Made by a program: the position numbers and the translations under genes
Assembly (NCBI GenBank): GCA_947591315.1
Contig: CANQDD010000001.1
Span: forward strand, 1-64,000
Direction: 5' to 3'
Length of the DNA stretch: 64,000 nucleotides
DNA from: an uncultured Clostridia bacterium
GTDB lineage: Bacteria; Bacillota; Clostridia; UBA1381
Shown here: piece by piece, positions 49,712-55,562 of the stretch
Layout: each line of letters begins with the position of its first letter
Position numbering within the stretch: the stretch's first letter is position 1
Notes under the pieces: model-generated
Told to the model about the DNA's origin: nothing
The model's database searches: none
Seen by the model: only the letters and a program-made list of their open reading frames with translations

Positions 49712-49837
49712 ATAAGTGGGCTGACATGTCCGGTAAGCACCCTGAAAATCGCCGTTTGCGTCGTGAATGTCAATAGACAAACAATTATATATGTGATAAA
49801 ATATCTGTGAATAACTTTATTGAAAGGACGCTTGTAT

Positions 49838-52800
49838 ATGTATAAAAGAATTGTTTCAGCCGTATTGTCGGTGTCGCTGCTTCTTTGCGCGGCATACATA
49901 CCCGCGGCGGCGAAGGACGAAAAGGTTACTCTTATCGTCGAAACAGAGGGCGCGCCGCTTCTCGCGACAAAAAACGCGGTTCGCATGGGAGCGGCGGACT
50001 ATATGGAGACAGACGAGGCAAAGGATACGGAGGCGCGTCTTTTAAGCGCGCAGTCGGAGGTAAAGTCCGACATTAAGAAGCGCGTGGGAGCCGACGTTAA
50101 TTCCGGCTTTACGTACACAAGCGTATTAAACGGCTTCTCGATGGAGGCTTACGAAAGCGATATTGAAAGGATAAAGGCGATAGACGGCGTAAAAAACGTA
50201 TACATATCGGAAAAGTTTGAAATTCCGCCGGAGCTTGCGTCAAACGACAGCGTCAACCCCGGTTTCGGCGCGCAGATGATGAACGCGCAGGCGATGTACG
50301 ACGAGGACTTTGACGGACGCGGACAAGTTGTGGCGGTTATAGACGGCGCGTTTGATACGTCGCACAATTTTTTCGCGTCCGGCGTTGCAGAGCCGAAGCT
50401 TACGAAAAGCTCAATAAAGGAATTTATCGAAACCAATGAGTTTAACGCCGATATATCGGCAAATCAGGTTTACAGGAGTGAAAAAATCCCGTTCGCGTAT
50501 GATTACGCCGATAAGGATGCGGACACGTATGATGCGAATGTCGACCACGGTAATTTAGTCGCGGGTATAGTCGCGGGTAAAAACGGCGAGTGTCTTGACA
50601 TGACATTTTCGGGCGTCGCGCCGGAGGCGCAGCTGGTGCTTATGAAAGTGGCGGACAGTGAGGGTTCCTTAGATTTCAGTGTAATTATCAAGGCGATGGA
50701 TGACGCGTCAAAAATGGGTGTGTGTGCGGTGAATTTGAGCATTGGAGGCATGTACGCCGAGTATCCGGCTCTGCTTGAAGCCACGGATAATCTCAGGAAT
50801 GCCGACATAGCGTTTTTATGTGCTGCGGGTAACTCTGACAGATACGAGGAAACGACCGACCACCCCGACTATATTTACAATGAACTTCCTTCTTCTTTTT
50901 CATCTGCCACAGCTGTTGCGTCGATTGATCCGACTAAGAAATTGGTACTCACCGGAAGGTTTACTGTCGGCGATGATATGGAAATAAGTATACTTCTGTA
51001 CCACGAGCCGTTTTTTCAAAAGTTTGCGGACAAGAGCTATGGTTACGTTTACGGCGATACGCTCGCCGATTTTAAGGCGATGGGCGATATTGCGGGTAAA
51101 ATAGTGGTAACTCCGTATGAGTCGGACGCGAAAAGCAATAAGTTGCTTGAAATGGGCGTCATAGGTGTTATATATGTGTCGGAGGATGAAGAATTTGACT
51201 CCGTAACCACGGTAAGTGATGAAAAAATACCGGGTATATTGGTGAGTAAATCCGTCGGTGAGCAGCTTAAAAATGCGGAAAACAAGACCGTAAAAACCGA
51301 AGCGAAAGGAACATGGGAAACATATGAGGACAGTTCGCCGGGTATGGCGTGGTATATGAACTGGAGTACGGGAGCAAATCTTGAGCTTAAGCCTGAAATT
51401 ACTGCTCCCGGCAGCGATATAGTTTCGGCGAGCAATGACGATGAGTACGCAACCAACAGCGGCACGTCGTTTGCGTCTCCGCATATAGCGGGCGCAATGG
51501 CTTTGATGAGCGGCTTTGTTGACGCGAAATATCCCGATGTAACGGGCACGGATAAGGTCGCGCTTATGGAAAATATTTTAATGAGCTCGGCTGACATTGT
51601 GTTCCAAGATGCGGACAAAACTCTCCCCGAGTCGCCGAGACGGCAGGGTGCGGGTCTCGCAAATTTGGAGGATGCAATGACGCTGCCGGTAATTTTAAAG
51701 GGTGATACGGGCAAGTCGAAGCTGAGCATTAAGGATAATCTGACAGATGACATAACGCTTAAGTTCACGGCAAAAAATCTGACGGGCGAGCCTGTAACGT
51801 ATGACGATATAAAAATCTACGCATTTACGGATAACTACGAGGAAAAAAACGGAAAAAATATGATCACCAACTCCGTGCCGCTTAAATTTGAGCCTGCCGG
51901 AGACAATCCCGAAAGCGTGACGATACCCGCGAACGGGGAAAAGGAAATAACGCTTAAAATAACTCTCGACAGCACGCAGACGGCTGCTAACAAGGAAATT
52001 TTCACAAACGGCTTCTGGGTTGACGGCTTTGTCGTTCTTTCCTCAAGCGACAGCTCTGTAACGGAGGCAAGTATGCCATACACGGGCTTTTATGGCGACT
52101 GGATAGCGTTCGACGCTATGACACCGTCGTACTTTGAGGAAGGCGGCAGTGAGAAAAACGGCGGATTGATGATAACGGACGCTGTGCTCGGCACAAATGA
52201 GTATGTTCCCGATGACGCGCCGGACAAGAACGAATACGAGAGCGAGGATTATGTCGGTCTTTCGGGCATCGTTGATTTTGACTATAATATAAATATGCGT
52301 TTGCTGCGCTCGCTGCACGGAGTAAGCAAGACGATCAAGGATTCAAACGGCAATGTTATCAGTACGAAGTCGATAATTAACGGACTGACGCGTCAGGATT
52401 CCGCAGGCAATTATGTGGAAAGCATTTCGATTGACGCGGCAGATTTGAGTGACGGTGACTATTCCGTAACGATATCGGGTACTCTCGGCTATGACAGCGA
52501 GCGGAGCAGAACCGAGGAAAAAACGTATAAATTTTACGTGGATAGCATGCCGCCCAAAATAAGCAATCCGAAAATTTACACAGAGGGCGACAAAATATAC
52601 GCGTCGTTCACGGCGAGCGACAACCGCTATCTTATGGGCGTCGAGGCGCGCGACACTAACAGCAAAACGGTCACGGAACCGATTAAGGCTGAGAAGAACG
52701 CGGATATAACGTTCGACATAACGGATATGGACGAGGAAACGATAGAATTTGCCGTTGTTGATTACGCGTACAATGAAACTGACTTCACAATCGGCTCTGT

Positions 52801-53086
52801 AAGCGCGGAAATCACAGACAGTGCCATAAGCGGCAGCAGCGCCGCGGTTTTTGCGAATGTCACGAACACATCCGACGACGCTGACGTTGATATTATAACG
52901 GCAGTATATGACGGCGACGGCAGACTTATGGGAGTTGACAAGCAGAACGCACTTCTTGTAAGCGGCGAGAAAAAGGTGTTTACGTTCGGCTTTGACAATG
53001 TATCGGGCGCTGCCGATATAAAGCTGTTTGTGTGGAAGCATAATGAAATGACGCCGCTTTGCACAGCGGTAAATAAAGCCTTGTAA
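49838..53086 (+). CDS. S8 (subtilisin-like) serine peptidase with PA-type insert and C-terminal domains (lactocepin-like)
   Basis: Signal peptide; VVAVIDGAFD, VDHGNLVAGIVAGK, SGTSFASPHIAGAMAL. Confidence 0.92.
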   Translation: MYKRIVSAVLSVSLLLCAAYIPAAAKDEKVTLIVETEGAPLLATKNAVRMGAADYMETDEAKDTEARLLSAQSEVKSDIKKRVGADVNSGFTYTSVLNGFSMEAYESDIERIKAIDGVKNVYISEKFEIPPELASNDSVNPGFGAQMMNAQAMYDEDFDGRGQVVAVIDGAFDTSHNFFASGVAEPKLTKSSIKEFIETNEFNADISANQVYRSEKIPFAYDYADKDADTYDANVDHGNLVAGIVAGKNGECLDMTFSGVAPEAQLVLMKVADSEGSLDFSVIIKAMDDASKMGVCAVNLSIGGMYAEYPALLEATDNLRNADIAFLCAAGNSDRYEETTDHPDYIYNELPSSFSSATAVASIDPTKKLVLTGRFTVGDDMEISILLYHEPFFQKFADKSYGYVYGDTLADFKAMGDIAGKIVVTPYESDAKSNKLLEMGVIGVIYVSEDEEFDSVTTVSDEKIPGILVSKSVGEQLKNAENKTVKTEAKGTWETYEDSSPGMAWYMNWSTGANLELKPEITAPGSDIVSASNDDEYATNSGTSFASPHIAGAMALMSGFVDAKYPDVTGTDKVALMENILMSSADIVFQDADKTLPESPRRQGAGLANLEDAMTLPVILKGDTGKSKLSIKDNLTDDITLKFTAKNLTGEPVTYDDIKIYAFTDNYEEKNGKNMITNSVPLKFEPAGDNPESVTIPANGEKEITLKITLDSTQTAANKEIFTNGFWVDGFVVLSSSDSSVTEASMPYTGFYGDWIAFDAMTPSYFEEGGSEKNGGLMITDAVLGTNEYVPDDAPDKNEYESEDYVGLSGIVDFDYNINMRLLRSLHGVSKTIKDSNGNVISTKSIINGLTRQDSAGNYVESISIDAADLSDGDYSVTISGTLGYDSERSRTEEKTYKFYVDSMPPKISNPKIYTEGDKIYASFTASDNRYLMGVEARDTNSKTVTEPIKAEKNADITFDITDMDEETIEFAVVDYAYNETDFTIGSVSAEITDSAISGSSAAVFANVTNTSDDADVDIITAVYDGDGRLMGVDKQNALLVSGEKKVFTFGFDNVSGAADIKLFVWKHNEMTPLCTAVNKAL

Positions 53087-53179: not shown

Positions 53180-53528
53180 GTGGTGGAGCTGAGGAGAATC
53201 GAACTCCTGTCCGAAAACAAGTCCGGTCGAACCTCTCCGAGCGCAGACTGCGGTTAAAATTCCCTTCCGCACCGCTTCGCAGTCCAAGCTATACGGTCGG
53301 TAGCTCCTAAATCATGGAAAAGGTCGGAGCGGGCCTTAACTCACGTTCACCGCTTAAATGATGCCAGCTGCGCGCCGCGGTACTCACGCAGGCGACAACG
53401 CCGCAATTAGGCAGCGTAAGCTAATTCTGTATCGTTAGCGTTTATATTTAGGTTTGAGCTTTTAAGGTGGCGCTCACCACCGCTCGCTGTTCGGCGTTCA
53501 TCGTCCCCGTCGAAGCCATTGCAGCCCC
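53180..53528 (-). ncRNA. ssrA: tmRNA
   Basis: Minus-strand 5' GGGGCTGCAATGGCTTCGACGGGGACGATGAACGCC ... 3' GGACAGGAGTTCGATTCTCCTCAGCTCCACCA; tag ORF reads ANDTELAYAA*. Confidence 0.96.
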
Positions 53529-53697: not shown

Positions 53698-53784
53698 GCG
53701 GATATGGCGGAATTGGCAGACGCGCTAGATTCAGGTTCTAGTGAGGGTTCCTTCATGCAGGTTCAAGTCCTGTTATCCGCACCA
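53698..53784 (+). tRNA. tRNA-Leu(CAG)
   Basis: GCGGATATGGCGGAATTGGCAGACGCGCTAGATTCAGGTTCTAGTGAGGGTTCCTTCATGCAGGTTCAAGTCCTGTTATCCGCACCA. Confidence 0.95.
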
Positions 53785-53859: not shown

Positions 53860-53888
53860 TTTACAATTTCGGAAAATAATGTTAAAAT
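53860..53888 (+). promoter_or_regulatory. Promoter TTTACA-17-TAAAAT for the structured RNA
   Basis: tttaca 53860-53865, taaaat 53883-53888; predicted start near 53895. Confidence 0.6.
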
Positions 53889-53894
53889 ATATTA

Positions 53895-54077
53895 ACCACA
53901 TATTTCTCTGATAATTTAATAAACAACGGCTTACGCTATGGAAAAGGCGTAGGCTTTAACTCTTATCCCGTTGTTTATTTAATTATTGTATTGGGAAATG
54001 TGTGGTAACATTGAGTTCTAAGCTGCGTTTTTTTAATGCGCGGCTTGATGAACGAATGAGGCTGCGCATTTTTATTT
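53895..54077 (+). ncRNA. Candidate structured RNA / attenuator leader of unknown class
   Basis: Long rod-like hairpin (53895-54006), overlapping anti-terminator (54020-54027 with 54039-54046) and terminator (54035-54046 with 54059-54070 plus T tract). Confidence 0.55.
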
Positions 54078-54122
54078 GCGTAAAATTCTAAAAAAATAAA
54101 CATAAGGAAAGGAAAGATTGTT

Positions 54123-55307
54123 ATGAAAAAATTAGTCGTTAAAATTACTAGTTGTTGTTTGGCAATTTCAATCCTATTTTCACTTTCAACTATGCCGTCA
54201 TATGCTGAAAATGAAATAAAAGTATTCTTGGATAACAGTGAAATTGCGTTTGATGTTCCACCTCAGATTATTGATGATTATACCATGGTTCCGATGAGAG
54301 CTATATTTGAGGCATTAGGATATTACGTTGACTGGGATAATATATATCAAGTCATTACTGCCGTTGATATAAAAAATGATACTTCAATTATAATTGATTG
54401 TGGTATTAATTCTATATGTGTGTTTCGTTCCGGTGCTTTTAACAAAGTTATGTTAAACAATGGAGATGTTTCTGAATTTTACAAAAAACATACAAAACAA
54501 ATAGAGCAAAAAATACCTATTATTAATGGAAGGACACTTGTTCCCGTTAGATTGATATCTGAATCAAGCGGGTGCAACGTATTGTGGGATGAAAATACAA
54601 AGAGTGTACACATAACATCCAATACAAATCAGCAGAATGGAATACTATTTTTTGATGAATTTACATGTATTCCTGCCCCTAATGCTAGAATTGAAAAAAA
54701 ACAACCAATGCAACCCGAGATAAGCGGATATAATGCATATATATATGATTATAATAATCAAGAACTAACAAGTGATAAATTGGCAGCATATATGAAGTTA
54801 TTAGAAGAATATGACTTTTACTTTGATCAAAACTATGCAAACGAAACTGGTACAATATTGTTCTCATATAATAACGATCAAAGTATTATTACTTTTTCTG
54901 GTAACGATACAATGACAAGAATTATTGTGTCAGACCAGAAAGGAAAATCTGATACTTATTACAATAATAAAGATTCAGAGCCTTATATAAATTCGTTTAA
55001 CCAACCACAAAATCATCTAGGCAATACACAATCTGCACCCGATTTGTACGTTGAAAACGATTATTTACCAAATCATGGCATGGATTATGACAATGAATCT
55101 TATAATAAAGCAGCATATGAGAATGAGCTTGCCCAAATAAATGCAAAATACGATGCAATGATTAGCGCTGTACAATCATCGTCCAATACATTTTCCGGTA
55201 GTTATGGTTCAAGCTCTACAGTAACAGCCCTTGCACAGCAAATTCAAATGTATGAGCAACAACGTGAAGCAGAAATTGAAATATTAAATGCAAAATATGG
55301 ATATTAA
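54123..55307 (+). CDS. Secreted protein with copper-amine-oxidase-N-like (stalk) domain
   Basis: Signal peptide; TMVPMRAIFEALGYYVDWDN, NGRTLVPVRLISESSGCNVLWDENTKSVHI; visibly AT-rich compared with neighbours. Confidence 0.85.
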   Translation: MKKLVVKITSCCLAISILFSLSTMPSYAENEIKVFLDNSEIAFDVPPQIIDDYTMVPMRAIFEALGYYVDWDNIYQVITAVDIKNDTSIIIDCGINSICVFRSGAFNKVMLNNGDVSEFYKKHTKQIEQKIPIINGRTLVPVRLISESSGCNVLWDENTKSVHITSNTNQQNGILFFDEFTCIPAPNARIEKKQPMQPEISGYNAYIYDYNNQELTSDKLAAYMKLLEEYDFYFDQNYANETGTILFSYNNDQSIITFSGNDTMTRIIVSDQKGKSDTYYNNKDSEPYINSFNQPQNHLGNTQSAPDLYVENDYLPNHGMDYDNESYNKAAYENELAQINAKYDAMISAVQSSSNTFSGSYGSSSTVTALAQQIQMYEQQREAEIEILNAKYGY

Positions 55308-55439: not shown

Positions 55440-55562
55440 AACGGTAGGCGATGATGACCGAGCCCGCGCGATTGAAACCTGCGAACCTTGTCAGATGGGG
55501 AACCAAGCAGCAATAAGCAGTGCGTTCGATGTGTTGCGGTAACCTCGGTCGGAGCCTTTTTA
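55440..55562 (+). ncRNA. ffs: Bacterial SRP RNA (small type)
   Basis: CCTGCGAACCTTGTCAGATGGGGAACCAAGCAGCAATAAGCAG core and GACCGAG/CTCGGTC closing pairing, directly upstream of dnaX; ends approximate. Confidence 0.88.

Follow-up and report, generated by a model that had tools for sequence, protein, structure and literature searches.

What precedes the stalk-domain protein gene at 54123-55307 (+ strand) of the window, by which we mean the whole stretch of 64,000 nucleotides analysed here, and does it control that gene? An earlier note, made from the sequence alone, had placed at 53895-54077 a leader RNA of unrecognised class in which an antiterminator and a terminator exclude each other, and had offered two readings, a riboswitch-like attenuator or a 6S-like small RNA. 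The gene itself encodes a secreted protein with the stalk domain named in the note (Cu_amine_oxidN1, PF07833, E = 3.2e-25) and is the probable target. Our analysis indicates that the element is very probably a 5' leader RNA through which transcription of the downstream gene is regulated by premature termination. Leader and stalk gene are flanked by genes for tmRNA (53181-53528, - strand), a tRNA (53698-53781, + strand) and the small SRP RNA (55455-55553, + strand), and upstream of the leader lies a 1088-aa open reading frame (49820-53086, + strand) whose product was recognised by eye as resembling a subtilisin-like serine protease that begins with a putative signal peptide.

All parts of the element lie on the + strand. 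A promoter scan recovered the sigma-A-type promoter that had been proposed, TTTACA (53860-53865) and TAAAAT (53883-53888) spaced by 17 nucleotides (53860-53888 overall), and the RNA is predicted to begin at 53895. There, folding and comparative pairing both identified helix P1, in which ACCACATATTTCTC (53895-53908) pairs with GGGAAATGTGTGGT (53993-54006) with only two departures from Watson-Crick pairing, both U.G. Folding continued the rod with P2 (53911-53929 with 53968-53986), which contains the single mismatch ascribed to it, and with the capping hairpin, P3 (53930-53936 with 53947-53953), whose apical loop (53937-53946) carries UG and AAA conserved at 85 to 100% in the copies found by a class-wide scan. 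The RNA starting at 53895 has a minimum free energy of -72.8 kcal/mol, compared to -39.1 ± 3.5 kcal/mol for shuffled sequences (z = -9.8), which excludes chance as an explanation of the fold and bears out the long rod that had been described.

The remainder of the element is best described as five strands, the first of which is the 5' strand of P3. Strand 2, CGTAGGCTTTAACTC (53948-53962), comprises the 3' strand of P3 and a 3' bulge and is complementary to strand 3, GAGTTCTAAGCTGCG (54013-54027), with a duplex energy of -12.5 kcal/mol in the window. The alternative partner of strand 3 is strand 4 (54035-54049), with which it forms the antiterminator by pairing of AAGCTGCG (54020-54027) with CGCGGCTT (54039-54046). 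Strand 4 is at the same time the 5' arm of the 12-bp terminator, in which 54035-54046 pairs with 54059-54070 ahead of TTTATTT, strand 5 and its U-run spanning 54059-54077; strands 4 and 5 were supported by the swap tests described below. The coordinates given earlier for both hairpins were right to the base, and the two are indeed exclusive, as they share 54039-54046. Folding of 53895-54078 put the terminator fold at -66.8 kcal/mol and the antiterminator fold at -65.2 kcal/mol, a gap of 1.6 kcal/mol, and such near-equal energies are expected of a switch. A further hairpin, H (AATGT-GTGGTA-ACATT, 53997-54012), identified by covariation, can form only if the inner half of P1 is open. Neither of these additional competing pairings, 2:3 and H versus P1, had been noticed in the earlier note, nor had the multi-copy, class-wide nature of the element.

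Homologues were first found by a DNA search, which returned weaker copies in the window's own genome and in its relatives. They share the same ends and come in two sizes, namely, short rods of about 70 to 125 nt, to which the copy in the window belongs, and long rods of about 130 to 220 nt. Two covariance models were then built in this analysis, and their E-values are rough. R1, representing the 3' module, matched 15 places in the window's genome, the weakest with an E-value of 0.014, and at E <= 0.001 matches occurred in 47 of the 70 family genomes, with up to 17 copies per genome, and in 59 of the 95 genomes from the order. R2, derived from an alignment of 34 short copies (A5), represents the sensor half from P1 to strand 3, with the terminator left out; it matched 63 of the 391 genomes scanned across the class Clostridia, distributed over 38 of 222 genera, with E-values down to about 1e-16. 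As a negative control, the class of Megasphaera paucivorans gave no R2 match at E <= 0.001 in 201 genomes under stricter Infernal filters. Absences are weak evidence here, because the genomes are mostly incomplete metagenome assemblies and the larger scans were run with the stricter filters. A 17-base core pattern returned mostly chance matches from genome and viral collections, and a composite pattern of the element found no viral copy.

Matches extend to Monoglobus: the match coordinates in one genome (G196) are identical to those in an uncultured Monoglobus MAG (G476), and the genus group of the former (g42) includes a single contig of 2,757,678 bases (G240), which by inference is probably Monoglobus pectinilyticus. 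Of the other copies, 136 of 159, and 59 of 66 in the class scan, have a TATAAT-like -10 sequence immediately before P1. Within the window's genome, some leaders occur together with their gene as near-identical duplicates, and some leaders stand in tandem, as pairs (G000:C11:62558/62759 and G003:C5) or, at one locus (L405, G358:C138 35045-35587), as three complete units, each with its own -10 sequence and terminator, before one gene.

The earlier note had left covariation among homologous leaders to be looked for, and every helix tested displayed it. An unprompted all-against-all helix scan of A5 ranked P1, 2:3, H and P3 first. In the 34 copies, P1 was 98.8% paired and all 10 of its pairs changed on both sides, P3 was 97.1% paired and 2:3 was 90.2% paired. 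H was 96.1% paired, with changes on both sides at five of five pairs, and at least four of its five pairs were present in 45 of 57 class-scan copies, while P2, assessed in a MAFFT alignment, was 68.9% paired with six of seven pairs changing on both sides. The observed covariation scores and percentages paired were reached by none of 500 shuffles, and the signal was gone when partners were slid by one to three columns. Pairing was kept while the sequences diverged to 52% mean column identity. In addition, P1 contains 21 G.U cells and only 1 A.C cell, indicating that selection acts on the RNA of this strand.

Shuffles of this kind can be outscored by sequences that are merely related, and we therefore added a swap test, in which the mean duplex energy of a strand with its own partner is compared to that with partners from other copies. 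Among 95 nonredundant copies, z reached -20.4 for P1, -6.7 for 1:2 (P3), -4.9 for H, -12.2 for 2:3, -13.5 for 3:4 (antiterminator) and -17.0 for 4:5 (terminator), against -1.3 and +0.3, that is, no signal, for control strand pairs; these values are comparative and inflated by relatedness, which the controls bound but do not remove. The 57 class-scan copies, to which the same caution applies, gave -20.2 (P1), -8.7 (1:2), -10.5 (2:3), -8.4 (3:4) and -18.0 (4:5), with null controls (-0.3 and +1.2). Pairing of the P1 strands with the terminator arms had z values of -10.8 and -8.8 in the window's own family and of only -2.6 and -0.6 in the class scan, and this four-strand exchange was dropped from the core model. 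Averaged over copies, the terminator (-17.0 kcal/mol) is somewhat more stable than the antiterminator (-15.1 kcal/mol), so that the order of synthesis probably matters.

We then compared the element to known RNA classes. No Rfam 15 family reached its gathering cut-off at the window locus, in agreement with the earlier failure to recognise the class; a permissive scan of the locus returned only chance-level eukaryotic, viral and small RNA matches, and permissive limits gave no match at any copy of the element in 40 homologous loci. 6S RNA (RF00013) resembles the element in its long rod, similar size and central asymmetric loop, but the present element is multi-copy, stands before genes and carries an antiterminator. 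A canonical 6S RNA, scoring above the cut-off (66.8 bits), lies elsewhere in the genome (C13:15077-15269) and no tested copy matched RF00013; the 6S-like reading is therefore abandoned. Like T-boxes (RF00230), the element is a clostridial leader with a terminator and an antiterminator, and some copies contain UGGU. This site reads GUAGC, GUCGC or GUGAC in other copies, and since UGGU is not conserved, pairing with a tRNA acceptor is not indicated; with no RF00230 match at the tested copies and no conserved UGGN bulge, a T-box was rejected.

Another close likeness is to transcription-attenuating riboswitches, with which the element shares its place in a 5' leader, a sensor closed by P1, exclusive antiterminator and terminator, and tandem copies. 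It differs from them in its two extra competing pairings (2:3 and H), in having no Rfam riboswitch match and in its targets, which are surface proteins rather than the genes of one metabolic pathway. In open-literature text searches, the only possible earlier sighting among the passages available was the SLH motif, and the element is not described in the passages retrieved from the 2010, 2021 and 2024 motif surveys. The SLH motif is a riboswitch candidate described from 80 examples, which come from Synergistaceae, Clostridia and Negativicutes and of which about 60% precede S-layer-homology (SLH) genes and others genes of unknown function (Stav et al. 2019, PMC6429828). Both are leaders in Clostridia before SLH and unknown genes, and both are orphan riboswitch candidates. 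However, the share of SLH genes of about 60% given there contrasts with 6 of 99 downstream proteins here (30 having LRR_5), and occurrence in Negativicutes contrasts with the absence of matches from all 201 Megasphaera-class genomes under the stricter Infernal filters. As neither feature fits the published description, the element was not filed under the SLH motif; identity with a part of that motif is possible, the comparison being with its text description rather than its consensus structure. Upstream of coding sequences, the element has an intrinsic terminator with which its antiterminator is exclusive, and across the class it keeps a structured, aptamer-like domain of P1, P2, P3 and conserved unpaired bases. 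On these sequence features, we conclude that it represents a new class of putative transcription-attenuating leader, with no Rfam 15 match at the copies tested.

We next considered the genes behind the leaders. A gene with a ribosome site and a start within 150 nt downstream was found for 56% of copies, compared to 16% on the divergent side, and a crude signal peptide was called in 66 of 98 downstream genes (start within 250 nt) but in only 2 of 14 divergent ones; open reading frames and signal peptides were called here by simple rules. Among 99 downstream proteins, of which some are truncated where the locus ends, Pfam domains included BspA-type LRR_5 (30), CHAP (8), the stalk domain Cu_amine_oxidN1 (7), SLH (6) and ricin-type lectin (6). 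Further products are a small coiled-coil protein, AbrB/MazE-like proteins with a zinc ribbon, and XRE regulators. Such genes are what a regulon of the surface and envelope, and not a metabolic pathway, would contain, and they suggest no clear ligand. The position before genes supports, at the level of sequence, cotranscription with the downstream gene and control of it.

The coiled-coil protein is encoded by a recurrent open reading frame of 40 to 49 aa (M..YEEMYxxLFNxITDxIEeL..EEMYI) directly behind the leader (G000:C17:41200, C2:99200, C7:97150 and C9:13740; L251 and L377) and has no Pfam match. The AbrB/MazE-like zinc-ribbon protein follows leaders at L205, L235 and L373, in tandem at the first two, and the L205 protein best matches phrog_4681, an antitoxin family. 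At L252 and L254 (G001:C3 and G015:C7), the leaders are near identical through the first codons (MKRKML) and are followed by wholly divergent surface proteins, as if surface-protein genes had been shuffled behind a common leader. Other structured RNAs occur near some copies: OLE RNA (RF01071, 443 bits; L020:539-1184, - strand) in a genome of the same genus, some 0.3 kb upstream of the leader there, and RT-14 RNA (RF02921) downstream of another (L357:2483-2659, + strand).

The following mechanism can be proposed. From its predicted start at 53895, the RNA would begin with the 5' strand of P1, which would hold the start of the RNA against the rod's end, and P1, P2 and P3 with their conserved unpaired bases would form the sensor. 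Strand 3 would then choose between strand 2 in the sensor and strand 4 of the terminator. Pairing of 3 with 4, the antiterminator, would let RNA polymerase read through, while pairing of 2 with 3 would free strand 4 and allow the terminator 4:5 to form. Since 3:4 excludes both 4:5 and 2:3, stabilisation of 2:3 would lead to termination and its disruption to readthrough. The competition between H and the inner half of P1 would provide a second switch point. The OFF state would be a compact sensor in which P1 and 2:3 are formed and which a bound ligand or protein stabilises, and the ON state an opened sensor with H and 3:4, a direction that we favour only slightly over its reverse. Coexistence of 2:3 and P1 looks feasible for short rods and doubtful for long ones, where the length of the rod may prevent 2:3 from forming together with P1. 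We infer both that the RNA is made and that it switches.

The attenuator announced by the earlier note thus gains homologues, covariation, a conserved promoter and terminator and a position before genes, and the likeliest readings of the leader are an orphan riboswitch and a protein-sensing attenuator. The second of these, in which the same switch would be operated by a protein instead of a metabolite on the sensor, is a sub-case of the proposed mechanism and a realistic possibility, though we would not bet on it. A protein could steer the competition between P1 and H, and no metabolic pathway unites the downstream genes, in contrast to the targets of most metabolite riboswitches. However, no candidate binding protein was identified, and the unpaired bases conserved in the P3 loop and the internal loop would suit a protein or a metabolite alike.

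A family of trans-acting small RNAs, each copy independent and readthrough into the next gene incidental, is unlikely. It would account for the promoter and terminator that nearly all copies have of their own, including each unit of the arrays of two or three (G000:C11; G358:C138), and for the copies without an obvious close downstream gene, which would suit a released small RNA; the same two observations speak against attenuation. A small RNA does not explain why same-strand downstream genes, mostly secreted, are strongly enriched over the divergent side, nor why the antiterminator 3:4 covaries with the terminator, a pairing that the plain terminator of a small RNA does not need. Far less probable is ribosome-mediated attenuation through a small leader reading frame such as ATG GAA AAG GCG TAG in the P3 loop of the window: the chain of strands 1-2-3-4-5 recalls the trp-type arrangement, but a ribosome site with a start codon was present in 42 of 97 leaders, compared to 39.9 expected from shuffling, and the peptides are not conserved, so that this reading was rejected for want of enrichment. 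A dispersed, MITE-like inverted repeat that does not act as RNA, which the many copies, inverted-repeat ends and near-identical duplicates might bring to mind, is hardly credible and was rejected given the strand-specific G.U pairs of P1, the retained promoter and terminator and the pairing conserved despite divergence.

For the sensor-controlled attenuator, a bolder reading, possible but less likely than not, is that it is a widespread new class of orphan riboswitch in Clostridia, through which one intracellular signal would govern a regulon of surface and secreted proteins from many copies per genome. Candidates for this signal would then include second messengers and envelope precursors. 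Many Clostridia of gut and rumen, Monoglobus among them, would have in common an RNA regulon not listed so far, in which up to 17 leaders per genome precede genes for LRR, CHAP, stalk, SLH and lectin proteins exposed to the host or to the fibre on which the bacteria live. With the alignment, the five-strand model and a complete single-contig genome from the Monoglobus genus group, both signal and mechanism become directly testable.
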